Assembly: GCA_947172415.1 (NCBI GenBank)
Contig: OX359189.1
Location: 766,501-830,500, forward strand
Reading direction: 5' to 3'
Length of the DNA: 64,000 nucleotides
DNA from: Chondrosia reniformis
Taxonomy: Eukaryota; Porifera; Demospongiae; Chondrillida; Chondrillidae
In this document: positions 11,550 to 61,301 of the stretch, in pieces
How the letters are laid out: the number at the start of each line of letters is the position of its first letter
How positions within the stretch are numbered: the stretch's first letter is position 1
Made by a program: the position numbers and the translations under genes
The notes under the pieces: model-generated
What the model was told of the DNA's origin: nothing
Seen by the model: only the letters and a program-made list of their open reading frames with translations
The model's database searches: none

Positions 11550-14500
11550 ATGGAGTCGTTGTTGGCTTATCAGAGTGATGAAGAAGGTGATTCAGGAGCT
11601 CCCTCAGAAGCAAAAAGAGAAAAAATCTCCGAAGACACTGACACCGTTATACCACTTCCTATTAAAACAGCAGCCCAAGTGGCTGTTAATTGTGCCCCAC
11701 TAGTCCCAGATCGAGTAAGTTCCTCTCATGTCCTACCCCCAGCATTCTCCGTCTAATGTGGCTCTCTCGTTTGAATTAGGTATCCGTCCAGACGGCTGCC
11801 ATAGATCCTTCTGTAAAGGAAGTGCATTACAATCCAAAATATGAAGAGATATTTGCTCCACAGGTGAGTAGACCGCATTATAAGGTTCTATACTTGACAA
11901 CTTAAAGGTTGGTAGTGTGGGTGTGTCATGTGTGGGGTGGGTGTGTCGTGTGTGGGGTGGGTGTGTCGTGTGTGGGGTGGGTGTGTCGTGTGTGGGGTGG
12001 GTGTGTCGTGTGTGGGGTGGGTGTGTCATGTGTGTGGGGTGGGTGTGTCATGTGTGTGGGGTGGGTGTGTCATATGTATGTTGCTGATATTGGTAAATTG
12101 ACAAGTGTACTTGCAACAGATATACTGCTTTGAGTTGTGGTAACTTGTAGATCTGTGAAATGGCAGGATTCTGCCAATCCGTAGTGTGTAGATCATGTAG
12201 TACATGTGTGTGTACGTAGATGGGTCCTTCTAATCCTTTTAAAACTGATCAACAAAAGGCAAAGAAGAACATGCTTTCTGGATTTGTAGAGCCAGCTCAT
12301 TTTAACCATTTTGAATTTGAAAATCAGCGGAGGACGTTTCACAAGTTTGGTCAGTAAACTGGTGTAGTCAATTAGTGTGTATGTGTGTGTATGTGTGTAT
12401 ATATGTGTGTAGGTTATGCAGTTAATCCTTCAGACAGCGTCCTAGGAACAGCAAGGTGAGATTAAACCTCTTAATCCTACATAATACATTTCTTACGAAT
12501 GGAGTTGGTGGAAAAAAACTTGAAACAGGTTATTTTAAGTTTTTTTGTTTTTATTCCACCATTCTGCTGAAGAGTCACATTGAAGAACCTGGTAGCTAGA
12601 CTGTTGTGGTGTTTCTGTGCGTGTGTTGTGTTATCAGCTGCAGTGTGTCTGTGATATGTAGTATTATTGGCGACAAGGAGGCAGCTGAGTTTACCAATGA
12701 AATGACTGCTTTTGAGCAGCAGAAGGGAGCACCTGGGAAGAAGCGTAAGAGAGAGGGGCGGGGCGACCCGGGAACAGTGGATGAGTATCAAGGACCATGG
12801 GCAGACTTTGTGGGAGAAGTGAAAACAGCTAAACCCACAGAGGTGGATAGTTTACCAAGTATTTTATTTAGCTGTGTGAGTCTACCTTTCTAAGCTTGTC
12901 TACTTATGTTACCAGGAGCAACTGGCAGTTCTGGAGAAGCAGTTTGGAGATAAGAAGAAGAAGAAGAAACAGGAAGAAGAGGTTGTGGAAGAAAAGACAA
13001 TGCTTCACAGTAGGTTCCACGACACTTGAAATATTTAAACAAGCCAATCAAAATCCTTACTCATCAATGAATCCAATTTAGAATTTACCATGACCTCTGC
13101 CCTTTCATATTTGACAGTGGTCCATTCCAGGAAAGATATTGATTAATTTCCCAACATCAAGGTGATTATAATTCTGTTTTCTTCTCTACTCAGTTGATGA
13201 TCCGTATGACTACCAAGGAAGATCCTTTCTGCACATTCCTCAAGATCTTGATGTAGATCTGAAGAGTGAAGAACCGCCAGACAAGTGTTATGTACCAAAG
13301 AAGCTACTACATACATGGTCAGTGTGAGGCATATAAATATAATATAAATATAATAAGCTACCATCGACATAATCATATTAGGGATCTACGTATAGTAGAT
13401 ATTATAGAGGTACCTATCAGTTTCATACGGGTATTCCAGCAAGGGATGTCCCACAAAGTAGCACACATGAAAAATCTAAGAAACCATTTTCCTACATGCT
13501 ATGCCTACTCTGTAAAAAGCCTATAGGGAACTAAACCCGGAGAGAGCTTTGGATGAAGATACAAGAGTCTTTTCTTTCTTCTTCTGCTCCACTGGGCCAA
13601 CATGTATGTCGTATTTTGTTCTGTAGGAGCGGGCACTCTAAAGGAATTTCAGCTATCCGCTTCCTTCCACAATCTGGTCATCTTCTCCTTTCTGCTGGCA
13701 TGGATAGCAAGATTAAGGTATATAGTACTAGTCACTGTGTGTATGAACATGTATAATATTTACTTTATTATATTGCTTACCTAGTTATGGGAAGTTTATA
13801 AAGAGAGAAGATGCATTAGGACCTACTTAGGTATGTAAAACTAAATTGTTAAAATGGCTCTATAAGAATTTAGCAGTTTGTGTTTGTAGATAATTGCAAT
13901 TATATATCAGGGAGTATGATACGTAGTACTCTCAGTAGGGATGACCGAAAAACATGGCCGCCCTATTCAATGTATTATCAATTAATAAAAAGTGTATCAC
14001 CTTATTAAAGTGGCCTCTCCTTTGCCTGTTTTAGGTCATGGTAAAGCTGTCAAGGATGCGTGCTTCAGTAATGATGGAACCAGGTTCCTCAGTGCTAGCT
14101 ACGATAAGTACCTCAAGCTGTGGGACACGGAGACGGGGAAGTGTATTGACAGGTTCAGTAACAACAAGCTCCCTTACTGCATCAAGTTCAACCCGGATGA
14201 GGTACCACCCGCCTGTTGTGAATAATACACTTAGCTTATGGAATCTGAAGGATATGTATCATTTTCACAATCACTTTTAGGATAAACAGAATCTGTTTCT
14301 TGCTGGTTGTAATGATAAAAAGATCTATGGAGTGAGTTAATACACTCAACCATGGCCCGTATACTATACTAATTATATTATTAATGCATAATTAATACAC
14401 TCATCCATGGCCCATATACTATACTAATTATATTATTAATGCATAGTGGGATATTAAGAGTGGAGAAACAATTCAAGAATATGACAGGTAATCTATGCAA

Positions 14501-15639
14501 CAAAATGGCTGACCTTTTACTGTATATTGGTTTCCATGGCAACCTGCAGACACATGGGAGCTGTGAATACCATTACATTTGTGGACGAGAACAGAAAGTT
14601 TGTGACGACAGCTGATGACAAGAGTTTGAGGGTGTGGGAGTGGGACACGCCCGTGGACATGAAGTTGATAGCCGAGCCAAACATGCATTCCATGCCAGCG
14701 GTTACAGCTCATCCTAATGGTGAGTGGGCGGGTAACCATGGCAACAAATTGGCCAACTTAGTTAATGTTTCCATAGTAAACATTGAGTATTAGGTATTTG
14801 TGTTTGTTAGCAGATTATTGATTTTGTTTATAAATATTTGTTGTAAATATGTGTTGTTGCAGGTAAATGGATAGCTTGTCAGTCCATGGATAACCAGATA
14901 ATAATATTTGGAGTTCACAACAACTTTAGAATGAACAGAAAGAAGACATTTAAAGGACACATGGTAGGACACTGTCATCCCTAATCACTTGAATATCTCC
15001 TCTGCGTAGCTTATTTCCACTACATTTGTGTACACTCTGTCTTGCAGTGCATAGTGTATATATACTAGTGTATATTGACTACTACTTTAATTGCAGGTTG
15101 CTGGATATGCTTGTCAGATTGATTTTTCTCCTGAAGGAAGGTATGTTGGTAGTATCCAAAGTTTTACTGATAATCAAAAATACAGGAAAATTGTATACAC
15201 ATACATAAGGCATATGTATGTCTTATTGTATATGTACATAGTTATGTGATTTCTGGTGATTCGGATGGTAGACTAAATATTTGGGATTGGAAGACAACAC
15301 GAATACACAGGTGTGTCATGTGTGTGTGTGAGAGAGAGAGAGAAGGTTATAAATTGTTTCTGTTATCTCAGAGTCTTCTTTCCGCTAGACCTGTCATTAT
15401 CATCTTGTCGCCATACCTTATTTTTCTATGTGGATACTGCATAATAATACCTCACACTTGTACTTGGTCAAACTTAATTTTGTGTCCAAGTGTAAATGTG
15501 TGATTAACTATCCATTTCTCTTGTTTGCAGTAAGTTCAAGGCGCATGACAGTGTGTGTATTGGAGCGTTGTGGCATCCTCATGAGACGTCAAAAATAGTC
15601 ACTGCAGGCTGGGATGGAGTGATCAAACTTTGGGACTAA
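11550..15639 (+). CDS. CDC40: Pre-mRNA processing factor 17 (CDC40), WD40 splicing protein
   Basis: More than a dozen short exons between ATG 11550 and TAA 15639 spell a PRP17 orthologue. The N-terminal part has [12 protein letters not shown], then the blocks [46 protein letters not shown], a KR-rich segment and [10 protein letters not shown]. The C-terminal part is a seven-bladed WD40 propeller: [75 protein letters not shown] and a final [11 protein letters not shown] at the stop codon. PRP17 acts at the second catalytic step of splicing. I chose ATG 11550 because it begins the conserved MESLLAYQS; the frame is open upstream to 11505. Introns carry a 20-bp minisatellite (11905-12075) and a dispersed repeat (about 13465-13605). 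Confidence 0.93.
11905..12075. repeat. About 20-bp GT-rich minisatellite in a CDC40 intron
   Basis: Head-to-tail copies of gggtgggtgtgtcgtgtgtg and variants with an extra tg run for about 170 bp. The core gggtgggtgtgtc is the same as in the 16-bp array of the PNPLA8 intron about 2 kb upstream. Confidence 0.9.
13465..13605 (-). repeat. Dispersed repeat family member (copy B)
   Basis: Reverse complement of copy A at 7891-8070: the order gtttagttccctatagg, then gtaggcatagcatgtagg is seen downstream of a cccagtggagcagaag block and the ctcttgtatc block when read on the minus strand. It lies in a CDC40 intron. Confidence 0.65.
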
Positions 15640-16097
15640 ACCTTCCGATCTAACATGCAACTTATATGTCATGTGTTGCAGTACATTTATCAGCCAAATA
15701 ACTCTCTTTATTTTCCCAGCACTCTTTGAATTGCTTGAGTGCTACGTATGTATAACAGTAATCCAATGTTGGCAGGCACTGTGTACTTACAGACATTGTG
15801 ACTTAACCTACCTGTTCACTAACAGCTCTTCACACACACTACTAATTGTATATTAATGTACACTTTTAATTAAATAAAATATTTGAGAAGGAGTAGGAAG
15901 TAGGATACTGCTTTCCATAAAGATCGAGCCAGGTCAAGATGGGAGGGTAAAGCTATACTACATATAATGATATAGTATTATATGCCAAGGGCTCAAATTT
16001 AAAAGGAACCACATGCGACATGCAAATAAAATAACTAAAATACAACGAATAACCAAAAAAAACGATAAACATTACCATTAATGTCAAATTAATTCCC
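15640..16097. other. Convergent 3' region of CDC40 and the kinase-zinc finger gene
   Basis: AT-rich sequence with aataaa at 15873-15880 on the plus strand, suitable as a CDC40 polyadenylation signal. The 3' UTR of the minus-strand kinase gene should also lie here. No further ORF of interest. Confidence 0.5.
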
Positions 16098-16391
16098 TTA
16101 AAAATTGAATGCATCCATCTCTTGGTAACAGACCTCACAGTAGCCCATTCTTTGTTCTGCTTTATCCCTTCCACAGGTTGGGGTCTTGCATCTCTTCTCC
16201 GGTATCACAGCTCTCCGTTGCATAGCTCCTTGGTGACATTCCAGACAGTAGAAGTTACACTCCTTCATACCTGGATATACACAGCCAGGTGTCTGGCACA
16301 TGGCAAATTGATTTCTAGGTGGTTCCCGTGTAATGTCCTCTTCCTGAGTCAGCCGTCGCATGTCAAATCCTGGAAGATCATTTGCGAGGGC
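16098..16391 (-). pseudogene. In-frame coding-like zinc-finger extension beyond the TGA
   Basis: Directly after the TGA at 16394-16392 the same reading frame stays open for 97 codons to TAA-type termination at 16098. It encodes ALANDLPGFDMRRLTQEED, then the finger CQTPGCVYPG...CLECH and the finger CKTPTC...CEVCY. The next gene carries almost the same residues (20106-20440 and within 21429-23850). Either the TGA is a recent nonsense change that truncates the protein by about 98 residues, or it is read through. The joint RNQFAMC fuses sequence that lies in exon 1 of the neighbour to sequence that lies in its last exon, so the intervening part was lost here. Confidence 0.7.
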
Positions 16392-18476
16392 TCAGAAAAA
16401 GTGATTGGAACAAAGCTTAGGACACCCAGGGTCTACCACCTGAGTGCATCCTTGGTAGGTGCACCTCTTAACTACATTAGTAGCCTGGGGCTCTTGATTA
16501 GCATCCAATTTCATGTTCTTTGAGTGGCAGCTGTAGCAGAGACCGCCAAACTGAGGGACTCCGTCATCTTGTTGACACTGAGCACATCTTCCACCTCCTG
16601 GGACATTCTGCCTCCTTTTGTCGTAGCATTTGGTACAGTATCCAGCTGTGTTGGGGAAACCAAAATAATCACACCCAGGGGTCTGACATTCAATTGGGTC
16701 GTCCTTAAACTTCACTGGGTTTGGTGGCTGAACTGAGTAGTCCTTGTACTTTATCTTCTTGAGTTGTGGTCTATTCCCTTTAATGTTAAGCTTGGTCATC
16801 TGGTTTCTGAGATTAGCTCCTTGTAAAGCACTTGGATCAGTTCTCCTGGGACGTGGCACTGGATTAGGACCCGGTGGTTGGGTAATGATTGGAGCAGGAA
16901 GGTCAAACCCTGAATCATCATCCTGTCCTGGTCGCTCTGTCGGCTCAGTGTTATATCCCTGTCTACCCCTAGAGAACACATCCTGGCCAATAGGCTGAAT
17001 ACGATAGCTAGAGGTGGGTGGGTCCTTATGCCTGATGGAGTCTCCATATCTAGAAGGCTCTCTCTCTATTCCTTCTTGAGCTTGTGCAAGGAGTCGCTTG
17101 TCAAAATCTGGCAGCTGATCTGAGACTGCTTGAACAAAGTGTTCAGTACAGAGGTAGTTGTTGGAGGAAGGGTCTGCCTGTTTACCACATTGACGGTAAG
17201 TACATCTATCCTTAATTCTGGCAGCTGTAGGAGCTTGTGACAAAGGTCTTATGATTTGAGAAGAAAGGTCAAATTTTAATTCATCGTCCAGTTCTATTCA
17301 AATCAAATAAACATTATATATAAAGGAAGTCTTGCAACCACTGCTAGTCTAGCTAGGGGACAATAAATAGAGTACACATTTTTTATCATTGATCTGCTAA
17401 CTTAAAGGTGTTTTACTACTACTAGTATCCACAGGATGGTGATTCTAATACTGTAATATACCTTTGTCCTCAATACCAGAACTTGACACTCCTAATCCAG
17501 ACATTTCATCCCCAAAAACGACCTTCATTTGATTATAGAGGTTTTTTATCGTTCTAAGTTGTGATGCCTCCTTATGTATCTTATTAACAATCATTGTATC
17601 ATCACTCTTTTGAAGCACAGATTCAATTTGTCTCAATTCTGTCACCACATCTGTACTGCTAGGACGTGACTCTGGAAGATCTGCCAAACAGTTATTAATA
17701 AGCTTAAGAAACCATTGCCTTTCCACTTCATTCAGTCTCTCAATTTGACGTTGCCTTCTTTCCAGCTCAGTCAGGGCCACCAGTTGAGTACCTTTGTAGG
17801 TGGTGGGATGTGATGGATTGGGCCATACATGGGTCAGTGTGGTTGTAATACAGTTGCCAAAGGAGAAGATGTCTAGCTTCTCATTGTATTTAGGAGGGTC
17901 TCGGAGGGCCTCAGGAGCCATGAAGACATGAGTACCCTTAGCTGAGGACTGCCGGGTCAACTTGGCCAGATTAATGGCTCGGGTCATGCCAAAATCGGTC
18001 AACTTTGTAAGGAATGAATATCTATTTAGCAGAATATTATTAGGACTCAAGTCGTGATGAACTAGAGGTGGATTCAGTTTGTGAAGGTAGCACAATCCCT
18101 GAGCAACTTGACGTAAGACTGACACTTTGTCTAGAAGAAGGAACTCCTTTTTGCTTTGCTCCTCCAGGTAGGACCGAAGAGATGTATCCATCTTCTCCAA
18201 CACGAAAATTGGTACCCGTTTTCCAGGTATCGAAACAACTCCAAGAAATTGTACAATATTTGGATGTCTCAGGGCGGACCAAACTTTAAGTTCCTTTTCG
18301 AAATCTCCGGCTAGTTTGTCCATTTCGACTTTTGATAGTGTACTCAGAAATATGTCGTGCATACCCTTAGCGGCACATATGGTACTGCACCATTCTACCT
18401 CGAAAACCTCGCCGTACGATCCTCTGCCGATCACTTTGTCAGTGAAACAAACTTCTTGCAGAGTCAAAGAAGCCAT
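16392..18476 (-). CDS. TKL-type protein kinase fused to A20-like zinc fingers
   Basis: Exon 1 (18476-17462) and exon 2 (17293-16392) join in phase 1 to 638 residues. The N-terminal kinase has the glycine loop IGRGSYGEV (16-24), catalytic-site lysine in CAAK (K37), LRHPNIVQFLG, the loop HHDLSPNN (D142), DFG (161-163) and APE (187-189). The usual Arg of HRD is His, but the catalytic residues are present. Closest style is tyrosine-kinase-like. After a linker come A20/AN1-like fingers: CTYRQC...CTEHF (about 370-390), CQTPGC...CTKCY (about 540-560), CAQC...CYSCH (about 572-592) and CTYQGC...CSNHF at the very end. The frame then meets TGA at 16394-16392 where the paralogue next door has CGA, and coding-like sequence continues in the same frame to 16098. 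A20-type fingers bind ubiquitin in known proteins, so ubiquitin-guided kinase signalling is an inference. Confidence 0.85.
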
Positions 18477-18540
18477 ACTTCTGCTTACGTCACAAATTAA
18501 TCTAAGCAGAAAATCATGGGCCTGTAGAAGATAGGGATAA

Positions 18541-18650
18541 CGCCCAGTGCCCAGCCAACTTCTGCAAAAATGGCTGCCGCCCACGTAAGCACATTCCAAG
18601 ATTTTGCTGACTCAGCATACCAGGATTCTTGAGGGCCAATCTGCAGATTA
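18541..18650 (-). repeat. Left arm of a 1-kb inverted repeat, at the kinase gene 5' end
   Basis: About 110 bp here match 19435-19545 in inverted orientation: aaaatggctgccgccc, then tgctgactcagca, then ccaggattct and gagggccaatc. The arm lies 65-175 bp upstream of the kinase ATG (18476), so it probably overlaps its promoter. Confidence 0.8.
18605..18617. promoter_or_regulatory. Perfect T-MARE/AP-1 palindrome
   Basis: TGCTGACTCAGCA is the full Maf recognition element with an AP-1 core (TGACTCA). It lies about 130 bp upstream of the kinase ATG. In animals such sites bind small Maf-CNC (NRF2-type) or AP-1 dimers. Binding in this organism is an inference. Confidence 0.6.
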
Positions 18651-19434
18651 TAGCCTGGAATTTTTATACAGTGTATAATGGAAGTTAGTGTCATGTCAAT
18701 AGAAAAGGCCCATCACCGAGATACAGTTGCCCCACTGCACAGCCACCGAGAGTCTCTGCATGAGATGGGCAGTTGCTGCCTCCTCCCCCATGGCCTGAGT
18801 CGACCTAGGTCCTTGAGGAGTGCCTTGGTGAGTGAACTGAAAATCCCAGTCATTTCCACTGCAACTGGGGAGAAGAAATGCACTGGGGTGAGGTGTACAT
18901 ATATACTTGGCCACTTTCCTCTCCTCCACCGGTGCCACTACTGCCCCTGCTTCCCTGGTGGCACTAGCAGAATAGGAGAGAACAAACATTGATCAGTGTA
19001 CATGAAATAAATTAAAGACCTCAGCCTCTTATGTCCACGTGTGCAAGTTATATACCAAATGGTCTCTAACCATGTTGTTTATGTGAATGCATGCAACCAA
19101 CTGTCGGTACTCCTAGCTCACACTCAAGGCAAATCAAATCTGTGGTGATTATTGGCTGAGATCCCCGAGACTGGAATTTTTGCTGATAATGGCACGAATA
19201 TGCATCATCTTCAGTCTATACTAAGGCGTGAAAAGGTAATTGGAAGGCCATGTGTTTTACCTTATATGATCTGTAGAAACTACTACTCTGTATGCAGTTG
19301 TGAATTTCAGTGTGGCTAAAGTCTTGTAGTGTTTAATAGTTACAATATACTGAACAGGAAGCCATATACGTTAATATAATTTCTGAAAACAATATATATA
19401 GGGGCGCCAAATATTCTAACAATATGATTGGCCC

Positions 19435-19545
19435 TCAGAATCCTGGTATGCTGAGTCAGCAAAACTGAGAAACGTGCCAGACTCACCTTACACGGGCGGC
19501 AGCCATTTTTGCGGAAGTGGGGCTGGGTACGAGATTACATGTTGC
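19435..19545 (+). repeat. Right arm of the 1-kb inverted repeat with a second T-MARE
   Basis: This is the inverted partner of 18541-18650 and includes TGCTGAGTCAGCA at 19449-19461 and gggcggcagccatttttgc. Read on the plus strand it corresponds to the kinase promoter read toward its gene, but no kinase ORF follows it. Confidence 0.8.
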
Positions 19546-19765
19546 AAGGCTTGCAATGCTTCATTTTCGTGTTGACATAAGGTAAATTTTTGATGCTTCC
19601 TCATTGTTGTCAAGAAAACTTTCAAACAATGGGAAAAGTGATGTGCATGGATAAGTAACTTAAATTTCAGTTTACCACTTCTGTATGGTTAGCTGTATAT
19701 GTCATGATCACTGTCTAATTTTTTAAATGTTAAATATATTTTCCTTATATAATACCATATACCCC

Positions 19766-19779
19766 GTTGCCGGGGCAAC
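19766..19779. promoter_or_regulatory. X-box-like palindrome GTTGCCGGGGCAAC
   Basis: Perfect inverted repeat of two GTTGCC half sites separated by two bases, which fits the RFX-factor X-box pattern. It is about 1.3 kb upstream of the kinase start and 330 bp beyond the OTU gene stop, so its target is unclear. It could equally be part of a small hairpin repeat. Confidence 0.35.
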
Positions 19780-19800
19780 CACCGGGATATAACAGTATTT

Positions 19801-19915
19801 AAGAAGCTATATACTGCCCTTGGATTCTTAAATTCTGTTTAAGAAGCTATATGCTTCCCTCGGATTCTTAAATTCTGTTTAAGAAGCTATATACTGCCCT
19901 CAGATTCTTAAAGTC
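19801..19915. repeat. 40-bp tandem repeat, three copies
   Basis: Copies start at 19801, 19841 and 19881 with aagaagctatat and carry ggattcttaaattctgttt or a close variant. Each copy holds the short inverted pair cttaaa/tttaag. Confidence 0.88.
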
Positions 19916-20105
19916 CCGCCAAAATAACGATAAGAAGCTTCGGAGTATATATCACTTATACCGTGTACCTTAATAATTAACATAGGTAATATACACAACT
20001 TCAACTATATAGTTAATCTGTCCAATAGTACAAGAATAGAAATTAAATGCAATACAACATGTAGCAAAGAAATCCATTTTGAAACTCCCTTAAAATATTA
20101 CTGTG

Positions 20106-23100
20106 TTAGTAATCATTGCCTTCCTGATTGAAATATCTCTCTTGGTAACAGACCTCACAGTAGCCCATCCTTTGTTCTGCCTTCTCCCTTCCACAGGTTG
20201 GGCTCTTGCATCTCTTCTCCGGTATCACAGCTCTCCGTTGCATGGCTCCTTGGTGACATTCCCGACAGTAGAAGTTACACTCCTTCACACCTGGATATGC
20301 ACAGCCAGGTGTCTTGCACAGCTTATCAATGCTGTCCTCTTGGTTGCTAGGAGGCAAATGTCTGGATCCACTCGCACCTCCAGATGTGGAGCCCTGTCTT
20401 GTGGCTCTGTTTACCTCCGAATAACTCCCTCCACCTCCTCCTAGGAGTATGAAACAAAATAATAAATAGCTTACTTTCTTGTTATGCAGAACAATGCTTT
20501 CAACAAAAACAAAGTAAAATATAGACAAATGCGATTATACTATCCCATTTCTAGAAGTATACACATCTTATAGTCAAACAATTTTCCCTAAAAGTTAGAA
20601 GCAAGGTAATGAAAATGAAATTTAAAAGTTAAAAATTGCTAAGTTTAGAGAAGTATATACTTAAGTAAAGTTGGAAATATGTTATTTTAAATATTAAACT
20701 AAAAGTGTAATTTAACCTACCATATTGATGATTGTAGCATCTCTCACAGAAACCCTCGTATCCAGCAGATTGGGGACCCTTGCACAGAGCACATCTTTTA
20801 TCTTCATCAAAAGGGCTATATCTATCATGTTGGCCACGCCTATCCATTGGGTCACGCCTGTCCATTGGGTCACGCCCATCCCTTGGGTCACGCCTATCCA
20901 TTGGGTCACGCCCATCCCTTGGGTCACGCCTATCCCTTGGGTCACGCCTATCCCTTGGGTCACGCCCCCCAATGTCCTGATCCCTGTAATGTGGCCTATC
21001 ACTTTGTCGGACCCCTTCCCAGCAAGCTGAACAGTAATCACTATAGTCTGCTTCAGCACTATTGTTACATTGAGGGCGCCTGCACTTTATACTCTGTGAC
21101 CTTTGAACTCCTGCTGGAGCCTTTGTAAAGCATTCCTTACAAAGGCCATTATATTTGGCTTCTCCAACATTTAGACACTGACCACTGGTACAGACTGAAT
21201 CATTGCGTCGAGGAGCCGGTTTTGGTTTAGCAGTATCCATGGGAACAACAGGGTCTGTAGAAGCAGAATTAAAACTGAGATTAAACTCACTACATTTCCA
21301 ACAAATTAGTAATATATTTATGAATCCAAATACTTAATAACACTTGTAAACAGAAATGAGTTGTAATGCATTCACTAAGCAGTACAGCCAGTAAAAATGT
21401 TGGGTAACCAAGAGTGTATACAACGCACCTGGTTTCTTCATCATCCGAGTAACTTCCTTTGTGTGTGTGGAGCACAGAAAGTGTCCGTATGGGTTGTAGT
21501 CTGGCTCCTGTCCAGTGCACATGAAGCACTTCATAGTAGATGCTTCAGGTTCCTTCCCTTGGATGTTAAGCTTGGTCATCTGGTTTCCGAGATCAGCTCC
21601 TCGTGAAGCATTTGGATCAGTTCTCCTGGGACGTGGCACTGGATTAGGACCCGGTGGTTGGGTAGTGATTGGAGCAGGAAGGTCAAACCCTGAATCATCA
21701 TCCTGTCCTGGTCCTCCTGTCGGCTCAGTGTTATATCCCTGTCTACCCCTAGAGAACGCATCCTGGCCAATGGGCTGATTACGATAGCTAGAGGTGGGTG
21801 GGTCCTTATGCCTGATGGAGTCTCCATATCCCCCTCTCTCCCCTCCTTCTTGAGCTGGTGCAAGGAGTCGCTTGTCAAAGTCTGGCAGCTGATCTGAGAC
21901 TGCTTGAACGAAGTGTTCAGAACAGAGGTAGTTGTTGGAGGAAGGATCTGCCTGTTTACCACATTGCTGGTAAGTACATCTACCCTTAATTCTGGCAGTT
22001 GTCCCTTGGTGGTTGTCATAGTAACCAGGCCCTTCCCTCCCACGTCCACTTCCTGTATTTCTAGGTGGTTCCTGTGGAATGTCCTCTTCCTGAGTCAGCC
22101 ATCGCATGTCAAATCCTGGAAGATCATTTGCGAGGGCTCGGAAAAAGTGAGCAGAACATAGCTTAGGGCACCCAGGGTCTACCACCTGAGTGCATCCTTG
22201 GTAGGTGCACCTCTTGATGCCGCTGGGGTTGGGCTTCTGGGAACCAGCCAGACGTCTCTCCTCATCAAGGTTATTGTAAGCCAGTGTACCTCCACCAGAG
22301 GCACTAGTAGCCCGGGGCTCTTGATTAGCATCCAATTTCATGTTCTTTGAGTGGCAGCCGTAGCAGAGACCACCGAACTGAGGGACTCCGTCATCTTGTT
22401 GACACTGAGCACACCTTCCTGGGACATTCTGCCTCCTTTTGTCGTAGCATTTGGTACAGTATCCAGCTGTGCTGGGGTAACCAAAATAATTACAGCCGGG
22501 GGTCTGACATTCAATTGGGTCGTCCTTAAACTTCACTGGGTTTGGAGGCTGAACTATGCGATCGTGGCGGCTCCCGTACGGATCTGGGAGATTTGATGCT
22601 CCGTCATCGCTGGGTCTCCTCTGGTGTCCGGTTCCTCCAAACACGGCCATCTGCTCTTTATAGCAATCATCGCACAGATAGTTGGTTGACACTGAGGCAC
22701 CAGGAGAATTACACTGCACACATCTCGGTCTTTCTCCACCCCTTTCCACCGGTTGACCAGTGCTTGATGTACAAGGAAGGCCTCCACCGTAGGATTGTGT
22801 GTGGTACTCTTTGGCTTTCTCAAGATACTCATTCCAAAATACATCAAAAAAATGTGATTTGTCCTCCCTTTGAATGTCTATAGCAGCTACCTCAAAATGA
22901 TCGTTTAATTGGGGTGGCTGCCTATAACTGATATTGAGGTATTCATTCTTAATAGTCTCAATCTGATCATTCTCTTCTCCCAAGATAAATTTGACTGGCA
23001 ACTTGTTGCCATTGGCGCTGACAAGGGGGCAGCAAGGAGGGTGCTTCATCTTTGCGTCATCGGCAATCACCAAGGCACTGAAATGAGCTCCTGAAAAGCT

Positions 23101-23850
23101 GAAAAGTAACGGATTTTTCCAGGTGTCCTTTGAAGCCCACAGAATAGGTAAGTAGATGCCTGGAATCATATTTTCCTGCAGTGAAGCACCCGATTGGTTG
23201 GAGTAGATCTTTGAGCTGCCATACACAATAATGGGCCTCCTAAGGATATTAGCCAGGACAAAGATGTGGAAATCATCCAAGCTTTCCTTATAATCTGCTT
23301 GCTTGCGGGGATTTACCCTATCTACCATTTTCTGCCATTCTACTGACCACTGCTTGGGGTCAAGGCTCATTCCAAACTTGTGGTTGGCAATTCTCATCTC
23401 AGCTTGCCAACGATCATGAAGGCTGGTACCATGAGATTCTCTTAGAGCAGTGTATAACGCACCTCTCAGCAGCCCCTGAGAGTCATGGATGCCCCACATG
23501 GATAGTGAGGCAGAGTGAAGCAAACAACTGCCGTCACCTCTTGTGTTGAGGCAGAGGAGTTGGGCACAGTTCTTGAACCAGTTTATTATGCGATCTTTCT
23601 CTAGGATAGTCTGGTGGGCCTTGGAAGTGAGCTTGGAGATGACAAAGTCCTTCACCTCCTTGGACTGTCTGTTTAGATCAGACATTGGAAAGACAAACGT
23701 ATAGAAGGACATAACTGTAAAAAATCCCACTAAATTATGAGGAGCATCTTGAAGATCCTCCTCTATTTCCCTTCTGACTCCATCAATATTCTTCAAGTTG
23801 CCAGTAGACAAACTTCTAAGTAATCTCGCGTCGTGCGGGTCAGCAGCCAT
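20106..23850 (-). CDS. A20/TNFAIP3-like OTU deubiquitinase with multiple A20 zinc fingers
   Basis: Exons 23850-21429, 21254-20721 and 20440-20106 join in phase 1 at both introns to 1096 residues. The N-terminal OTU domain has the A20-type nucleophile block GDGSCLLHSAS (Cys109), the helix block FVLANILRRPIIVYG (about 197-211) and the catalytic His in SGAHFSALV (His256). Human A20 uses Cys103 and His256. The zinc fingers follow: CVQC...CDDCY (377-397), CQTPGC...CTKCY (448-469), CAQC...CYGCH (480-500), CTYQGC...CSAHF (548-569), CTYQQC...CSEHF (625-647), CFMC...CSTH (775-796), then CTSGQC...CKECF, CRRPQC...CSACW, CALC...CERCY in exon 2 and two more in exon 3. That is about eleven, against seven in human A20 (790 aa). 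A20 trims Lys63 chains and restrains NF-kB signalling; that role here is inference. A coding minisatellite builds the RDPRDR linker. A 5' UTR intron is likely (acceptor near 23903, donor near 23962). Confidence 0.9.
20830..20965 (-). repeat. Coding 18-bp minisatellite (six-residue RDPRDR/RDPMDR repeat)
   Basis: About seven copies of cctatcccttgggtcacg and variants lie inside exon 2 of the OTU gene. The unit is a multiple of three, so it adds six-residue charged blocks to the linker between zinc fingers without shifting frame. The shadow frames give false G/P/S-rich ORFs. Confidence 0.9.
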
Positions 23851-24223
23851 TTTCTCGTCGAAGAAGGAGAACGAGTTGACAGAGAATACTCTGAAGTTAG
23901 CTGGAGAAGAAGAAGAGTGTGTGAAGTACTATGTTTTAGTACAATCTGAGAAGAACTTACTTTGTCTGTAATAAAAGATATTCAGCGTCACTTGAATTCG
24001 ATAGAAGGATCAAGCAAAGAGGACGATCGTCTTGCCAGATGACGTAAGGGACTTACGGGGAAAGTTTTTCTAAGAGGGATTACGCAATATTTGCCGTATA
24101 GCCTGTAACTCAATGATAAAATGGCCTCCAGTTGCAGATAATTCACTGAGTTCGACATGCTTATAAAGAGGTACATAGTATACTGAATAAAAGTTAGCTG
24201 GAGAAGAAGAAGAGCGTAAAATA

Positions 24224-24286
<63 letters not shown>

Positions 24287-24819
24287 AGTGCACACGTGCA
24301 AAAAACATCACTAGGGTACAGACCAGACCCAATGAGGCACTTTATGTGGACTGCAAGATTTGGCTGATTCAGCCTGACTGTCTCTGTGGACTATATTTAT
24401 GATGTGAATGTGTATACTTGAAATTAGATATAATATATACTCTGTATATACTCTAGTTTAGATCTGCAATTGGAAGGAACTTACTGCAATGCTGCAATTG
24501 AGTCATCAAATATCGGGGGAGTTTTATAGGGAAAGAGTTTTTATCTCAGAAGTTTACTTAAAGATTGTGATTTACATATATAGCACTTTATATGGTTTCC
24601 AATTGCAATTTATAAATTAAAAACGAGCAGTAAATAGTTGTTTCAGAAATAAATTCAACAAAGTTCTGGATACAAGCACACTTGCCTCATAAGCACTCTC
24701 GCCTCATGTAAGAGGTACCCATGTAAGCGCACTCGTGCACCTCAAGACATGCACCGCACATACATATGCATGCTAAAATCTGAATAAAATTATTTGCAAC
24801 ATTGTTATAAATAAACAAT
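23851..24819. other. Upstream region of the OTU gene and 3' region of the next gene
   Basis: Contains a likely 5' UTR intron, an ATT microsatellite (24222-24284) and a TGAGTCA AP-1 core at 24499-24505. The 22-base stretch beginning gttagctggagaagaagaag occurs twice, near 23896 and 24193; the first copy provides, on the minus strand, the pyrimidine-rich 3' splice site of the leader intron. No coding sequence is recognised. Confidence 0.55.
24222..24284. repeat. ATT trinucleotide microsatellite, about 20 units
   Basis: An uninterrupted run of att units upstream of the OTU gene. It yields a false poly-Asn ORF on the minus strand. Confidence 0.95.
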
Positions 24820-27800
24820 TCATGTAATTTGTTCCTTTAATTCATCTGCTTCAAGTTTGCAGTCACTTTTATTGAGTGCCTCCAGCAAGGTTAGAAGAGT
24901 TCTTTCCCTTTCTCCTGTACCATTCACCTGTCTCAGCCACTGTCCAAACATTTCCATGCAACGAGCATGATTATCAGATTTGTCAGCTTCAATAGCTTGG
25001 CACTTTGTATAGCTGAACCCCAAATTGGTTGCTATCCTATTCCACTGTTGGGGCACCTTATCAGCAACTGTACTTTGTATGAGTGCCATGTGACCTTCAT
25101 TTAGCAGGACACTGATATGTAATAAAGATAAAAAAAATATATGTACTGTATTATATTTAACATTGATCCAGAGGCAATAAAGAATTTCAATTGTAATACC
25201 TTAAATGAATATCTTTGGAACCTCTTTCAATGTCAGCTATAATTAAGAAAAAAATCAGAAAATTATATACCAAGGTCATTCAAGAATACAAATAATACAT
25301 ATCCTATATACGATTAGCTATATACATACATGAATATTGACACCTAAATATATGGGTAAGTGATTATCATGCACCTTCTTCTTCTTCTTCTTCTTCAAAT
25401 GCATTTATTTTCTTATATTCTTCAAGAAAGTTCTATATAGGCAAAACATGTATACACATGTAGTTGTTCCTAGCTGTCTCTCAATATGCATTCATTTAAA
25501 AAAGAGAACAATGAGGAATGCTGAAATTTGGTCTATTTCTGCTTAGCCACTTTTGTGAAGCGAATGTTGCAGAGCATCAAAACATATTTTAACATTTAGA
25601 AATGCACATAAGAGTGCAAATGCCCAAGTGTAAATCTATATATGTACCTTAAGATCTTCAATATTCCTCAATTGTGAGTCTATTCTCTTACTCCACAGAG
25701 TGGCTGTTTCCTTCTACATGTGACAATATATATATACGAATCAAGGAACTCAACCAACTAAAGTGATCACGATATGCATGCATCGACATACTGCATACCT
25801 CCAACGTGGTGATCCTCTCCTTTAAGTCTTGAGTTTGTTTTTTGTACTCATTGATAATTTCAGACTTCTCTAATCTCTCCACTTGTCTCATCAATGTTTG
25901 GTTAGATTTTTCTTCTGTTTCTCCTTTCTTACAGTATATCTATATATAGAGAATATAATAAAATGTTTGCATTATTTATTTAAAGTGATTGTGAGCTGTT
26001 TCATTCTCATGCAGTGCTCTAATCAACTGCTTCTATATAGGGTAACATGCATGCAGCAATAAATTAAATATCAGACATATTCCAAATGCATGTATACTTT
26101 ATATACATTTAAGACAATGTTCTCTGCATTCTTTTCTTTATCATACTCCACTTCCATTGTCTTCAACCTCTCTACCAGTTCCACCATTGCCTGCATCTCC
26201 TTTTCCTGTTCAGCTTCTTTCTTCTGTAATAAGACAACAAAACCTAGCTTGCATGTATGTATGCATGTATATATGAGAGAAATTGTTTTTTCTTACAAAC
26301 TCCAACACAAACTACTTAATAATATATAATTACACTGCATGCCACAGTCATATGAATGTGAATTTAATCAAATTGTGTCCCTTTAATTGTGATCCAGTTT
26401 GAAGGTTGCCTTTGCATGTAGTTATTCTTTGTAACAGTTCTAACCTTATATTCTTTTAACTCCTTGTCATATTGCTGTAATATCTCTTCATACTGTACTT
26501 TAGAGGCTGCCAGTTCATTGACCAAAGACTGCTTTTCTTCATTAGCCTTCGCTAGCGATTCCCTAAGGCTATCTATCTCCTGTTAAGTGCAAAGCAGTAT
26601 AAAGTCCTTCAATGAATACATATGTACTTAGCATTACCTTCAAATTTGTATCTCTCTGTGTGATTAATTCTTGGATAGACGCTTCTAATCTCTCCACATG
26701 GTCCATCAATGTCTGTTTTTCCTTCTTCGCCTTTTCATCTTCTCTTTTCTGTAACAATAATAACATTTGTCGGCTTATAAACATAATTTACACTATACTC
26801 ACACTAATGTCTCCTAGCTGAGGATCGAGGACAAATGAGCTTAAATTCATGCAGGGGTATATATTTTGTCAGTATATATACCTATATTTATATTAGATTA
26901 CCTTAGTATATTGTAACTTGCACTGTATATAGGCTCCATTAATCTCCAAATTGGATTTCTCCATTTAACTAAGGTTTTAATTACCTTTGCATGCTCTTCT
27001 TCACTAGCTTCAGGTTTCTGCTTCTGTAACCATTGAGTCCTATTATCCTTCCTTGAATAACATATCTTACATAATCCTTCATATTTTAGTTCTCCAGCGT
27101 TTCTACACTGATCATGAGCATTTGTACATTGACTGAGTGAATGAGATAGATTAAGTGGGGCTGGCGTCAATGGGTCAACTGGCAGTATACCTATTAAGAG
27201 CATGAAAAATGTATGTAAATTAATTTAATTACGCCAAAGGAACCTCTAAACTCTAACAGCACATATAATCGTGGGGTACAGTAGAGGACCAAGCTCATTT
27301 TCTATTGTGCTGTACTAAACTGAACTCTATCAGATCTGACTTGTTTGCTTATTGTAACCAAATTAAATCAACTGTAAATTCATGTCCATGTCCCAAAGCA
27401 ACGAGCTATATTTTCTCTTAAATAGACAATAATAGAATTATCCACTTTTTGTTTAAGATGTATAAACTTAGGCATTCCCTTTTATTCACAACTTAATTAA
27501 TGTAATCACCCTCACCAATTTTTTGTGACTAGTAAGCCTATTTGGCTGGTCAGATTACTGATGTAGCGTTTTTTCCATTTCCCACATACATGGGTATAGG
27601 AGCAAAATCCCGTAATATTATTTTTATTATCAATTTAATGTTGCAACACTGACCATTAATTGTGGAATCACTCCGTCGACGGGTATTTTTAAAGCATTTA
27701 TTGCACATTCCATTGAAAATCATTTCTCCAGTATTTCCACACTTATCATTGGCACACGAATTGCTACGTTTACAAGCTTGTTTGGACTTAGTATCCATTG

Positions 27801-28120
27801 GATCTGTAGGAGCAAAGTAAAGAAATAGCACTCAAAAGTATTAAGTATTACTGTAACAATTATTAAAGTTATCTGCTAATCTCTTTGGACGAGTATTTAT
27901 ACCTAAAAACTTACCACTAAAATTCAAGAGAGCAACTTTATATATCTACCTACATGTATAGCAGCTTGACCTAACCTAGTTTCTCCGACTTCCTGGCAGC
28001 TCTCTTTTTACATGCGTAGCAGATGTGATCTCCTTTCGGTTTCTGATCAGGATAACACATAATGCACTTGTAGGATGATGTTGTATTTGGTTGAGATTTC
28101 TCGGTGTCTCTAGCAGCCAT
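24820..28120 (-). CDS. A20-like zinc finger, coiled-coil and Death-domain protein
   Basis: Eleven exons (28120-27976, 27803-27654, 27190-26985, 26748-26638, 26579-26445, 26223-26107, 25927-25799, 25713-25648, 25432-25375, 25236-25200, 25111-24820) keep one frame and give 481 residues. Fingers are CIMC...CYAC (exon 1), CANDKC...CNKCF (exon 2) and CTNAHDQC...CKICY (exon 3). Exons 4-8 encode a Lys/Glu-rich coiled coil; exons 4 and 7 are related to each other (TLMDHVERLE and TLMRQVERLE). The last exon is a Death domain: VPQQWNRIATNLGFS, a middle FGQWLRQ helix and RTLLTLLEALNK near the C-terminus. Death domains recruit MyD88/IRAK/TRAF-type partners, and the fingers suggest ubiquitin contact; the cellular role is inference. 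Exons 1 and 2 resemble the exon 1 end and exon 2 start of the OTU gene, with the same intron phase. All junctions have GT-AG ends. Confidence 0.82.
27397..27557 (+). repeat. 160-bp dispersed repeat (copy 1)
   Basis: The segment from agcaacgagctatattttct to ggctggtcagatta recurs at 36668-36826 in the same orientation, with roughly nine bases in ten matching by eye. It lies in intron 2 of the Death-domain gene. No terminal inverted repeat or ORF was seen. Confidence 0.85.
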
Positions 28121-28764
28121 CCTTTCTCATGGAATGGAGGGTGAAGCGAACCAACTATTTAAAAGATAAAGAGAAGAGCTAGACTACAATAGCACGGAGC
28201 TATAGTAGAGGACTTACATTGTCTGAAATATCAAGAATACTACGTCGCGAAAAAGGAGCTCCTGCTAGCTTGCATGGATCGGTGTGAGATATGATGTAAT
28301 GGGAACGGTACTTTCCTGTGGACTTCACCTGTATATCTACATGCATGATTTTCATCACATACGAATTATTAAGCACATTCCACTAGCTGTGTGGCCCCAT
28401 GCATTACGTCATAAAAGAGACCCATGCTTTTAGCGAAGGAGAAAAGTTTCATTTTTGTGCAGGTGGCTTTAATTTCAGTTTAGCAAGTCTTTGAATGGCT
28501 CGTTCACAGATCTACGAAACGATAGATAGATATAAAGCTAAGATAGAGCTTAATCGTGTTTTTTCGTGCCACTCTCTCTGTAACAGCTGCTATTATAATT
28601 GCTATTATTAGAAGTCTAATATAGTCTACATATGTCGTAGCTTTGTAGTAACATTAAATAGGCAATAAATGTAAGACCAAACCAATAGCTATAGTAAGCA
28701 GTTCTGCAACGACAAAAGCAGCTAATTGTATTGCAAAACTTTTAATGCTAATGACGTAATGAAA
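28121..28764. other. Divergent spacer between the Death-domain gene and CDK5RAP1
   Basis: About 640 bp separate the two divergent ATGs. On the minus side an upstream ATG (near 28130) opens a very short frame ahead of the chosen start, and a GTAAGT donor near 28214 suggests a leader exon. CRE-like sites are ttacgtcat near 28404 and tgacgtaat at 28752, the latter 13 bp before the CDK5RAP1 ATG. Confidence 0.5.
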
Positions 28765-31700
28765 ATGGCGTTAAATACACTTTGGATGGCCTGTACATCG
28801 GCTAAAGGTGGCAGGCTGTTACGGTGAGGGAAAGTGAGAGTGAGGGAGAGTGAGAGTTAGGGTGAGATTGAGTTTGGGGTAAGGATGAAAGAAGCTTTAG
28901 TTCGAGTATGCACTACTTATGTTACCTAGCCATTCCAGTGAGGTGGATGTAAACATTAGCATCTGGCATGTGTTTTATAGCGTACTAATGAGTTCTGTTA
29001 CATGTAAGGACCTTACATACATCTGTCCTCTGTTATACTAGGTATCTGCAGGTCAGTATATGTCAGTATACTGGAACTGGAGGACAAGTTGGGCCTACAT
29101 CTGCTGTCTCGAAATCCAAATTGCCAGTAGAGACTATTCCAACACTAAAGGACTTTATGCTACAGAATGTACCAGTCGAAGGGAAAGCCAATATTGATAG
29201 TACAGCCACTGTTCCTTATTTACAGCAGGGGAACTACCTGTCTAAAGATAGGAGAGGTACATATAGTTAGGTAACCATGGTAACAGTAAAATAGTAAGGA
29301 TATCCCATACCTTCTACATGGTCATGTGGTCTTGCAGACCACACCCACTTAATGCCTTTTATGGACGCCAGTTTCAGTCTAGTATTAAGAGGCTGACTTG
29401 TAATGATAATAATGCAGCCCAAATAAGTCATATTTTAGCTTCAATGATGTAGCTGGAGAACAGAGGTACACAGGGAGAGAGAGAGATGTGTGTTTATATA
29501 GATGACAGCAATGCTAGTCCAAATGTATCATACTAAATTTCATTTCTGTACCTGTTACTTGGTTGCAGTGTACTTTGAGACCTACGGCTGTCAAATGAAT
29601 GTGAATGACACAGAAATAGCTTGGTCCATACTCAAGCAGGCAGGCTACAAGCAGGCACTCTCTCCTCAAGAGGTACTCCAACACCTTCTGACAGTACATA
29701 CGTAGTTTATCCACTTTTATTTGTAAATACCTTATAACAGTTATCAATATAATCTAACCACAACCATTATCCCTAATCATTTGTCATAAAAAAGTTGTAT
29801 TGTATGAGTGAATTGTTATGTGAATATATTTTCTAAACTAAATTTCCTCATACATTAGATGCTTGTTTGTATACTTCTCTCAGTGACACTGTCAATTGAC
29901 ATGTGACCTTAATTATGTAATGCAGTCCTATCACCTTGTCTACATAGGCTGATGTTATCTTAGCAGTGACTTGTGCCATTCGGTAAGTCTCTGAGTGTTT
30001 CTCCATATTGTCAAGGAATGCTTGATTCCTGTGTTGGTGGCTTCCTGTGTTGGTGGCTTCCTGTGTTGGTGACTTCCTGTGTTGTTGACTTCCTGTGTTG
30101 TTGACTTCCTGTGTTGTTGACTTCCTGTGTTGGTGACTTCCTGTGTTGTTGACTTCCTGTGTTGCTTATTACCTTTTTCTTTAGTGAAGGAGCGGAAAAG
30201 AAGGTGTGGTCTCGATTGGACTATTTTCGCTCTTTAAAGAAGAAGAGAAGTCGTAAACTCCATCCTCTGAAGGTTGGTGTCTTAGGATGTATGGCAGAGA
30301 GACTGAAGACAAAGATCCTGGAAACGGACAAGATGGTGGACCTAGTAGTTGGACCAGATGCCTACAAAGACCTGCCAAGGCTCCTCTCGCTCACAGGAGA
30401 TGGGCAAACGGCTGGTGAGACATATCTTCCCATTGTCTTCCTTCTCTGTCAACTGTATCAGTAATTTTTATGCATACAGTGAATGTCTTATTGTCCCTTG
30501 ATGAGACGTATGCTGATGTGATGCCAGTAAGGATTAGCCAGAATTCCAAATCCGCTTTTGTCTCGATCATGAGGGGTTGTGAGAACATGTGTAGCTATTG
30601 CATTGTCCCCTTCACCCGAGGAAAGGAACGGAGTCGGCCCATCCATTCCATCATTGAGGAAGTCAGGCAACTCTCTGATCAAGTATGTTATTTGGTCATG
30701 TGACTGAAAGCATATTTATTAATGATCTTCAATTAGACGATTTCTAACTGTGCCAAACTTATCTTAGAGATGGTTCATCTTTAGTCTTTTTTGAGTGTCT
30801 AGAGATGATCTTAAATGGTATCAATGTTTGCAGGGAGTTAGAGAGGTGACGTTGTTAGGTCAGAATGTTAACAGTTACAGGGATACCTTCGAATCATCCA
30901 TCCCAGTCACCCACTCAACTTCCACTGTGCACAGCAGAGGATTCAGAACTGTTTACAAAGACAAGAGTGGGGGACGCCGGTTTGCTGACCTTCTGGATAA
31001 AGTGTCTCTGGTGAGCAGACCTCCCACTGTGTCTTATCAGCCATCTTGAAATACTTCTGCTACTTCAAACAGGTTGATCCAGAAATGAGGATCAGATTCA
31101 CTTCTCCACATCCAAAGGACTTCCCCGATGAGGTAACCAGTATATGCCTCTCTGTGTTAGTGAGAGTGTGTCAGTGTGGGGTGTGTCAGTGAGAGTGTTT
31201 CAAAGTGGATGAGTCAACAAGGGTGTATCAGTGAAATGAGTGAGGGTGTGTCAATGTGGGTGTCCGTGAGGGAGTGTCAGTGTGTGTGTGTCAATGTGGG
31301 TGTGTCAGTGTGGTGTTTGCTACTGATAGTAATATGACATGAGATAAGTTCTTTCTGTTTAGCTATTACATATCATTAAAGAACGACATAACATTTGTCG
31401 TCACATACACCTTCCTGCTCAAAGTGGTAACAATGAAGTGCTGAGATCAATGAGGAGAGGATACACAAGAGAAGCTTATGTTGCCTTGGTGGATCACATA
31501 AGATCAGTCATACCAGGTCTCAATCAGTAGTCAACAATACAGTGGTGCATATATGTACAGTGTATTGTTTTATACCAACTGATACAATCTTATTACGGAT
31601 GTACAATACTAGTTAGTAGTACTGTCAAATATTGGTATTGTGCAATTATCTCTCTCTCTCACTCTCTCACTCTCTCACTCTCTCACTCAATTACTAGATG

Positions 31701-36667: not shown

Positions 36668-36826
36668 AGCAACAAGCTATATTTTCTCTTAAACACAGAC
36701 AATAACAGAATTATCCATTTTTTGTTTAAGATTAGGGACTTAGGCATTCCCTTTTATTCACAAATTAATGTAATCACCCCCACCAATTTTTTGTGACTAG
36801 TAAGCCTATTTGGCTGGTCAGATTAT
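36668..36826 (+). repeat. 160-bp dispersed repeat (copy 2)
   Basis: Matches 27397-27557 from agcaacaagctatattttct to ggctggtcagatta, with small insertions or deletions and point changes. It lies about 360 bp beyond the stop of the ARID1-like gene. Confidence 0.85.
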
Positions 36827-60041: not shown

Positions 60042-61301
60042 TTAATGATTTTGATTTCCTACATGATAAGAAATTGGCATTTCTCCAGTCTGAGTGATAG
60101 ATTTGTATATATATTCACTCTTGAATTCGTCAATATTTACATATGCAGACTGAAAATGCCTCATTCCATCATTTAAACGAAAGCCATTTCGACCATGTAG
60201 AATGCGTAGGTTATTGAATACAATAGTGTCTCCTGGTTGCAACCTTATAATCACTTTGTCAAATGTATTTATCCATTGTGCAAAGGAGTAGTGAGCCGGA
60301 TAGTACATTGACTCCTTATCAGGAGTTGTCTGAAGGTAACCCTCAACAATAGGGGACCACGTGACAGCTATAATCTCTCCCTCCTCATTCAGCTCAATAT
60401 GCGGCTTTCTATACACCATATGAACAGGTCTGCCCCTCTCATAGTGCACCTTCTGGAAGGTAGCAGGAATGGTGGTCAGGGTGGCAAAGTCTTGTGGGTG
60501 TGCCTTTCTGAACTCTTCAGCCGCGTGGAATGAGTCAACAAAAAAACTCTCTCCCCCTTCAACACAGGAATCAAATTTCAAGCAGTGGAAAAACTGCAGT
60601 CCCGGTGGAGATTTCATGTAAGGGATGTCAACATGTGGTTCCAGGAATACGTTACTATAAGCAACATTAATTGGTTCAGGGGCCGATTTCACATCAGTAA
60701 CTCCTCCGTATATAGTTTTCTGTATTGGAGCTATCAAGTTGAGGACCTTCTCAACTGTACCATCATCTGTTGGAACATTCTTCAAAAGAACAAGACCTTG
60801 TTCGGCGAGAAGCTGCAACCATTTCAAAACAAGTTTTTCATCATTCAACATCTCCGGATAACTTATTTTTGTTACAGGTTCCTTTAATGGAGGCGGCTGT
60901 CTGCTTCTTGTATCAAGGGGAGGATCATAGGAATTCTCCTTCAGCATCTTTAAAGGAAATATTCCAACGTGACCTAGGTCTTCCTTCCAGCGCACCGTTA
61001 ACTCTTTCCCTTTAATGCCTACCTCAGATACAGTGTATGGGGGCTGGAGCGAATACGAAGGGCGCATTTTCTGACCCGAACTGCTAAGGCATTGTGAACA
61101 CAGACAATTGTAGCGGAGCCACGTACCATCATAACGAGATACGGTACTGGATACAGCGCTGCTCTTGTCCCAAGAAACCACAAGTCTCCCTCCTTCAACG
61201 GAGGCGGAAGAGATCCCACGGAGAGCTTGAAGAAGAAAGTAACTACTCTTTCTGGCTAGCTTATTGTACGCCATTTTATTAATCAAGTAATTAAAACTCA
61301 T
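60042..61301 (-). CDS. Gamma-butyrobetaine/trimethyllysine dioxygenase-like enzyme, copy A
   Basis: An intronless frame of 419 codons. The N-terminal zinc-binding domain has C66, C68 and C71 (NCLCSQC) and the conserved GHVGIFPL His111. The 2-oxoglutarate oxygenase fold gives the iron ligands His223 and Asp225 (EPHVDIPY) and His369 (RILHGRN), with Arg381 in MRHFQSAYVN as the likely 2-oxoglutarate contact. Family members are BBOX1 (last step of carnitine synthesis) and mitochondrial TMLHE (first step). Motifs and length (human BBOX1 387 aa, TMLHE 421 aa) do not clearly separate the two. The N-terminus is basic and hydrophobic, compatible with mitochondrial import; an alternative start is Met10 (61274). 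Copy B lies 39 bp upstream on the same strand. Confidence 0.88.
   Translation of the reverse strand: MSFNYLINKMAYNKLARKSSYFLLQALRGISSASVEGGRLVVSWDKSSAVSSTVSRYDGTWLRYNCLCSQCLSSSGQKMRPSYSLQPPYTVSEVGIKGKELTVRWKEDLGHVGIFPLKMLKENSYDPPLDTRSRQPPPLKEPVTKISYPEMLNDEKLVLKWLQLLAEQGLVLLKNVPTDDGTVEKVLNLIAPIQKTIYGGVTDVKSAPEPINVAYSNVFLEPHVDIPYMKSPPGLQFFHCLKFDSCVEGGESFFVDSFHAAEEFRKAHPQDFATLTTIPATFQKVHYERGRPVHMVYRKPHIELNEEGEIIAVTWSPIVEGYLQTTPDKESMYYPAHYSFAQWINTFDKVIIRLQPGDTIVFNNLRILHGRNGFRLNDGMRHFQSAYVNIDEFKSEYIYKSITQTGEMPISYHVGNQNH

Follow-up and report, generated by a model that had tools for sequence, protein, structure and literature searches.

How do three adjacent genes come to carry the same kind of zinc finger on three different signalling modules? 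The question is posed by a cluster of minus-strand genes at 16098-28120 of the window, as we call the whole stretch of 64,000 nucleotides analysed here (C1:766501-830500 of the Chondrosia reniformis assembly, which totals 117,379,552 bases in 15 contigs). This assembly, odChoReni1, is reported as 117.37 Mb in 14 chromosomes and the mitochondrion, with a chromosome 1 of 10.41 Mb, a QV of 69.8 and haplotypic duplications removed by curation (PMC12181767). Gene K joins fingers to a TKL-type kinase, gene O has an A20-like OTU domain with many fingers, and gene D combines three finger-like modules with a coiled coil and a Death domain. The splice models, drawn up by eye, predict 638 aa from 2 exons for K, 1096 aa from 3 exons for O and 481 aa from 11 exons for D. 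The answer that we favour, and hold to be rather probable on the sequence comparisons below, is that D and K arose as chimeras at O's locus, when parts of its finger region were copied onto genes from two large families.

The initial annotation had described three neighbouring minus-strand genes in which related fingers are fused to different modules, and this description stands: the kinase, OTU and Death domains all exceed their Pfam cut-offs, and the fingers are homologous. Exon 1 of K (17462-18476, with the ATG at 18476) encodes the kinase (domain at aa 13-281; PF07714 at 7.2e-37 on the spliced protein and, above cut-off, at 2e-37 on the exon's open reading frame, 17448-18611). Its motifs are kept, namely the Lys in CAAK, HHDLSPNN (HxD), DFG and APE at aa 34, 140, 160 and 186, and its best solved matches are CTR1 and TNNI3K, which we take to be TKL members. 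Exon 2 (16392-17293) carries four A20-type fingers (aa 369, 541, 575 and 616) and ends at an in-frame TGA. Exon 1 of O (21429-23850) contains the OTU domain and the first fingers (PF02338 at 2.4e-13, above cut-off, on the reading frame 21337-23928); exon 2 (20721-21254), with further fingers and a linker, and exon 3 (20106-20440), with two C-terminal fingers, were placed by splice model and finger pattern.

Fingers were counted with the pattern C-x2-4-C-x9-13-C-x2-[CH], which matches 5 times in K, 11 in O and 2 in D, one match each in K and O overlapping its neighbours and forming no separate finger. In 500 shuffles per protein the means were 0.01, 0.11 and 0.004, and the largest counts 2, 2 and 1. 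Profile searches divide the domains first named for the cluster: kinase, OTU and Death pass, and zf-A20 stays under its cut-off of 21.6 bits in all three genes (on exons, 20.3 bits for D, 18.9 for K and 15.9 for the exon-2 reading frame of O) and is not among the Pfam matches for the OTU exon of O. On the spliced models K scores 17.2 bits, and D has no match at E 0.01. Genome-wide, the zf-A20 search lists two places, both on C4 (the second at C4:8943813) and neither of them the cluster; the profile passes its cut-off in four of the five O relatives given (31.5-40.3 bits), with no match in P0007. For K and D, which lie below the cut-off, homology to the O fingers was established instead. Among solved structures, the K finger at aa 541, which has a YFG motif, is best matched by A20 (3oj3/3oj4; E 5e-4 for 3oj3), and an O finger matches a PDB A20 finger at E 9.5e-4. 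One finger of the cluster matches the solved A20 ZnF4, and O exon 2 matches solved A20 fingers weakly (E 0.16). An AN1-like character, also proposed at first, was not borne out, as no AN1 domain is among the Pfam matches on exon reading frames.

The fingers of K consist of four blocks found again in O. Block C (16774-17228) corresponds to O 21554-22002 at 92.5% DNA identity, block A (16475-16734) to O 22302-22555 at 93.1%, block B (16311-16469) to O 22057-22215 at 94.3%, and block D (16118-16300) to O 20138-20320 at 95.1%. O has A, B and C in exon 1 and D in its last exon, while the order in K is C, A, B, D. The A fingers precede the B/C-type fingers in O and in its relatives P0002 and P0005, whereas in K a C finger comes before A. 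Since P0002 and P0005 agree with O, and five relatives (36-39% identity) align with it across the finger region, O has the older order, A before C; the claim extends to A and C only, as B and C fingers are alike and, among the fingers of the relatives, it is the C finger that comes closest to O's B finger. The frame is kept through the C-A and A-B junctions, through the B-D junction and through two 6-nt indels. Judged from these alignments, the K fingers are a recent, reordered copy of O's. The block ends fall within O exons, and exon 2 and both introns of O are without counterpart between B and D in K. A retrocopy of O into K was considered and rejected, since the blocks end inside exons and their order is changed.

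Whether K is a working gene depends on a splice and on a stop. The kinase-finger gene first proposed has both of its parts, but on separate exons, and their link is a predicted in-frame splice across a 168 nt intron (17294-17461). The unspliced frame contains a stop between the two exons, and the kinase reading frame has its own TAG at 17445. Scored with a matrix derived from 11 introns of O and D that were picked by eye, this intron has the top donor (10.2, at 17462) and the top acceptor (9.3, at 17293) of the region, the runner-up acceptor scoring 8.7 at 17444. The stop is the TGA at 16392-16394, which lies inside block B, two codons past the fourth finger, at a place where O has CGA (Arg). 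Given its position, the four K fingers stay whole; block D and part of B stand beyond it. The gene start at 16098 given in the initial annotation takes in 97 further codons (16098-16391) with two more fingers, a reading frame that our model leaves untranslated. A sequencing error at the TGA is unlikely in view of the QV. Splicing around it was tried by eye with one short GT-AG pair, which gives a stop at the junction.

It is quite possible, if short of probable, that K is simply a kinase gene ending at the TAG at 17445, and that what follows it is a duplicate of O's fingers that is decaying and yields no protein. Such a view takes in the kinase frame's own stop, the in-frame TGA at 16392 and the lack of a start codon ahead of the first finger in the finger frame, and it is further favoured by Ka/Ks, which is 0.83 (0.42-2.14) in block C and, in the part past the TGA, 0.77 (0.19-3.31). 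Against it, the strongest donor and acceptor sites of the region connect kinase and fingers in frame, and the block junctions and both 6-nt indels preserve that frame. The conservation of the fingers also argues against decay: before the TGA, 48 of the 253 sites are invariant in O and the five relatives, and none of the 24 amino-acid changes falls on one of them (P = 0.006 if a neutral K took all the changes, 0.08 if it took half). Ka/Ks before the TGA is 0.44 (0.24-0.88), a value near 0.5 being equally expected with constraint on O alone; for blocks A and B1, which were picked after the fact, it is 0.15 (0.03-0.52). From these substitution patterns and the predicted splice, a shortened but working K, active despite its TGA, seems somewhat more likely than a dead gene.

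An inverted repeat lies upstream of K (18547-18641 and 19426-19530), with arms of about 100 bp and 78% identity framing a stretch within 18540-19535. At its centre (about 18994-19338) is a repeat present dozens of times in the genome, many of the copies being in inverted pairs. We considered a role for the inverted repeat and set it aside: its arms match this locus only, among the 77 matches listed (40 of 1394 candidates were scored), and no causal link emerged.

As part of the same explanation, and with the same probability, O would be the sponge's A20-type protein. Its OTU domain finds TNFAIP3 as the closest solved match (phmmer, 1.5e-43), ahead of OTUD7B (2e-35) and ZRANB1 (2.3e-30). Cys109 (codon at 23524-23526) and His256 (23083-23085), the predicted catalytic residues, are both intact at the residue numbers at which they had been reported. 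The position of human A20 Asp70, which we take to be the third catalytic residue, is occupied by Ser76 in O (23623-23625); human A20 and all but one of 11 aligned relatives have Asp there, the exception being P0007, with His. The O protein may bind more than it cuts. Taken to its end, this substitution would make O a pseudo-enzyme that acts only through binding of ubiquitin chains, and the cluster a set of chain readers and not of editors. We regard this as somewhat unlikely, as Cys109 and His256 are kept, many OTU positions are invariant across O and the five relatives, and a different acid could stand in for the missing one. Two further features concern O and its domain. An 18-nt tandem repeat in exon 2 (20804-20983) encodes an Arg-, Asp- and Pro-rich linker, and a genome search with PF02338 gave 73 OTU matches, some of which lie in frames longer than 2000 aa and may belong to mobile elements.

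A similar picture emerges for D, at a greater age. Its exon 1 (27976-28120) holds the start codon and the first finger-like module by the splice model, exon 2 (27654-27803) an A20-type finger homologous to O exon 2 (Pfam match below cut-off, and alignment), and exon 3 (26985-27190) a third, atypical module of the form C-x6-C-x11-C-x2-C, read from the translation. The three modules align with the C-terminal fingers of O at 46 of 138 identical residues (33%; pairwise E 5e-17), a score reached in none of 2000 cysteine-preserving shuffles, and the first introns of D and O lie at the same aligned Leu/Pro-Asp-Pro place, both in phase 1. The D fingers thus appear from alignment and intron position to be an older copy of O's last fingers. 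A finger module common to the genes, as the initial annotation had supposed, is borne out at two depths, with DNA 92.5-95.1% identical between K and O, and 33% identity with the same first intron between D and O. A repeat of 160 bp, 91% identical between its copies at 27397-27557 and 36668-36825, has the first of these between exons 2 and 3 of D.

The remainder of D agrees with the coiled coil and Death domain first assigned to it. Exons 4-9 (25375-26748) encode a region of about 200 aa without proline, whose heptad periodicity was matched by none of 1000 shuffles; the splicing around exons 6-7 is where the model is least secure. Exons 10-11 (24820-25236) encode the Death domain and the stop (PF00531, 1.4e-7 on the spliced protein and 6e-9 on the exon reading frame 24823-25200; 32.0 and 36.4 bits respectively, with a cut-off of 22.6). 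Compared with solved Death domains the Death exon matches weakly (FADD, E 0.023), and its single-sequence fold has low confidence (pLDDT 43). The by-eye splice sites, and the gap of roughly 1.9 kb from the final finger exon to that of the Death domain, leave some room for D to be two genes, one a small finger gene and the other a separate coiled-coil/Death gene. We consider this quite improbable: the junction of exons 3 and 4 has the highest donor score (11.3) and the second-highest acceptor score (13.5), though as a member of the matrix training set, and the frame stays open through all 11 exons to a single stop.

The divergence between O and K, at 5-7%, is comparable to that between the two haplotypes of some animals. 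That their similarity is an assembly artefact, a retained haplotype, is nevertheless hardly credible, since the finger blocks are reordered and sit on a different first exon 4-6 kb off on the same chromosome, in an assembly reported to have a QV of 69.8 and to have had haplotypic duplications taken out by curation (PMC12181767).

The chimeric origin of K and D that we prefer is further favoured by the distribution of the parts, as the fingers are local and their partners dispersed, which would fit O fingers being grafted onto incoming genes. Within this genome the fingers are restricted to the locus: all five matches to the middle fingers of O lie here, as do all six to its end fingers, the sixth being a D exon. 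The D finger exons matched D only among 89 scored matches, O not being listed. For the K kinase, the genome yields at least 135 further scored matches, and in 35 of these the identity is 46-70%. No A20-type pattern was found on the kinase strand within 1.5 kb of the seven best-scoring of these paralogues, whose tails are mostly coiled-coil-like by eye. Matches to the Death domain number 142 at E up to 0.001, counting D itself. Three of its nearest relatives (51-52%) are at C1:1.208-1.228 Mb, two of them after long GTPase-like reading frames (labelled by eye), and the sole finger-like pattern near them is on the opposite strand.

The combinations themselves had been put forward as non-standard, and kinase with A20 finger and A20 finger with Death were indeed not met in protein or literature searches, both weak tests of absence. 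In a large protein set, the finger tail of K (aa 340-638) had O as its only relative and D had none, which weighs little because that set handles multi-exon animal genes poorly; a literature search of titles and abstract openings, again a weak test, found neither combination.

The order of events can be proposed from the two divergences. A copy of O's fingers onto a coiled-coil/Death gene would first have given D, the old chimera, and a later copy onto a TKL kinase gene would have given K, the young one. Most likely, the A20-type fingers would bind ubiquitin chains and so recruit whichever module they carry to signalling complexes that are ubiquitinated. Once there, O would edit or cap the chains, D would use its coiled coil and Death domain to enter Death-domain assemblies, and K would phosphorylate chain-bound targets. 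For A20, chain binding in RIPK1/NEMO complexes is reported, M1-linked ubiquitin being bound by ZnF7 and K63-linked ubiquitin by ZnF4 (PMC9110840). By analogy, the sponge fingers should bring the K kinase and the D Death domain to complexes of this kind. The "writer, editor and adaptor" circuit of NF-kB/IL-1 type in the initial annotation is doubtful in that form: a kinase is not a ubiquitin writer, O has Ser at the Asp70 place, and K has a premature stop. A ubiquitin-editing circuit at the locus, with the three predicted proteins in a common pathway, is an inference.

A bolder version, which we think unlikely as a whole, is that the sponge A20-like locus is a donor that repeatedly grafts its fingers or its OTU head onto kinases, Death adaptors and TRAF-like ligases, with K a newborn, working, ubiquitin-directed kinase. 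If this were true, new ubiquitin-directed signalling proteins would arise beside the ancestral brake. Already on the explanation that we favour, the locus would show how regulators of the ubiquitin/NF-kB type gain parts, by the copying of one gene's binding module onto its neighbours. The copy in K is young enough that the DNA still shows its steps. As natural fusions, A20-type fingers with a kinase and with a Death domain would test whether fingers alone are enough to recruit an enzyme or adaptor to ubiquitin chains.

Several known systems resemble parts of the cluster. RIPK1/IRAK type proteins, which act in NF-kB pathways, combine kinase and Death domains; there the kinase is joined to Death, whereas here each is joined to A20-type fingers instead. 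Cezanne/OTUD7 proteins resemble O in their OTU domain and A20-type finger, OTUD7B being its second-best solved match, and a separate gene with OTU and zf-A20, Cezanne-like by eye, is present on C4 of this genome. A20/TNFAIP3 is like O in its N-terminal OTU, as O's closest solved match, in the Cys and His that are kept and in the putative A20-type fingers that follow, one of them matching the solved A20 finger 3oj3. O differs in the Ser at the Asp70 position and in sharing its fingers with two neighbours, and also has more finger modules than the seven reported for human A20 (PMC9110840).

A parallel fusion is found among the relatives of O. Over a shared 446 aa, with the OTU and the first finger, P0007 and P0005 are 97% identical. 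P0007 then continues in a single frame through RING and TRAF zinc fingers to a part matched by MATH models, which score under their cut-offs; the two probably lie on one contig. Like the genes of the cluster, this TRAF-A20 fusion is a near-copy of an A20-like gene with another signalling module. Unlike K and D, it keeps the OTU and the first finger, adds an E3-type module, thus a different partner, and has no zf-A20 by Pfam. The P0007/P0005 pair suggests that A20-like genes have been duplicated and fused to new modules more than once. Chimeric Death-domain proteins of amphioxus (PMC2575513) are comparable as reported lineage-specific domain shuffling in innate-immune networks; they differ in that the main text of that report does not use the words A20, OTU or zinc finger.

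No RNA genes were found at Rfam gathering scores in 14000-30000, and no tRNA genes within the window. Two direct copies of a 660-bp stretch (approximate length), 87% identical, lie at 60352-61011 and 61648-62307. The cluster is flanked by two plus-strand frames labelled by eye, one for a WD40 splicing factor resembling CDC40/PRP17 (13989-15598) and the other CDK5RAP1/MiaB-like (28992-29705).
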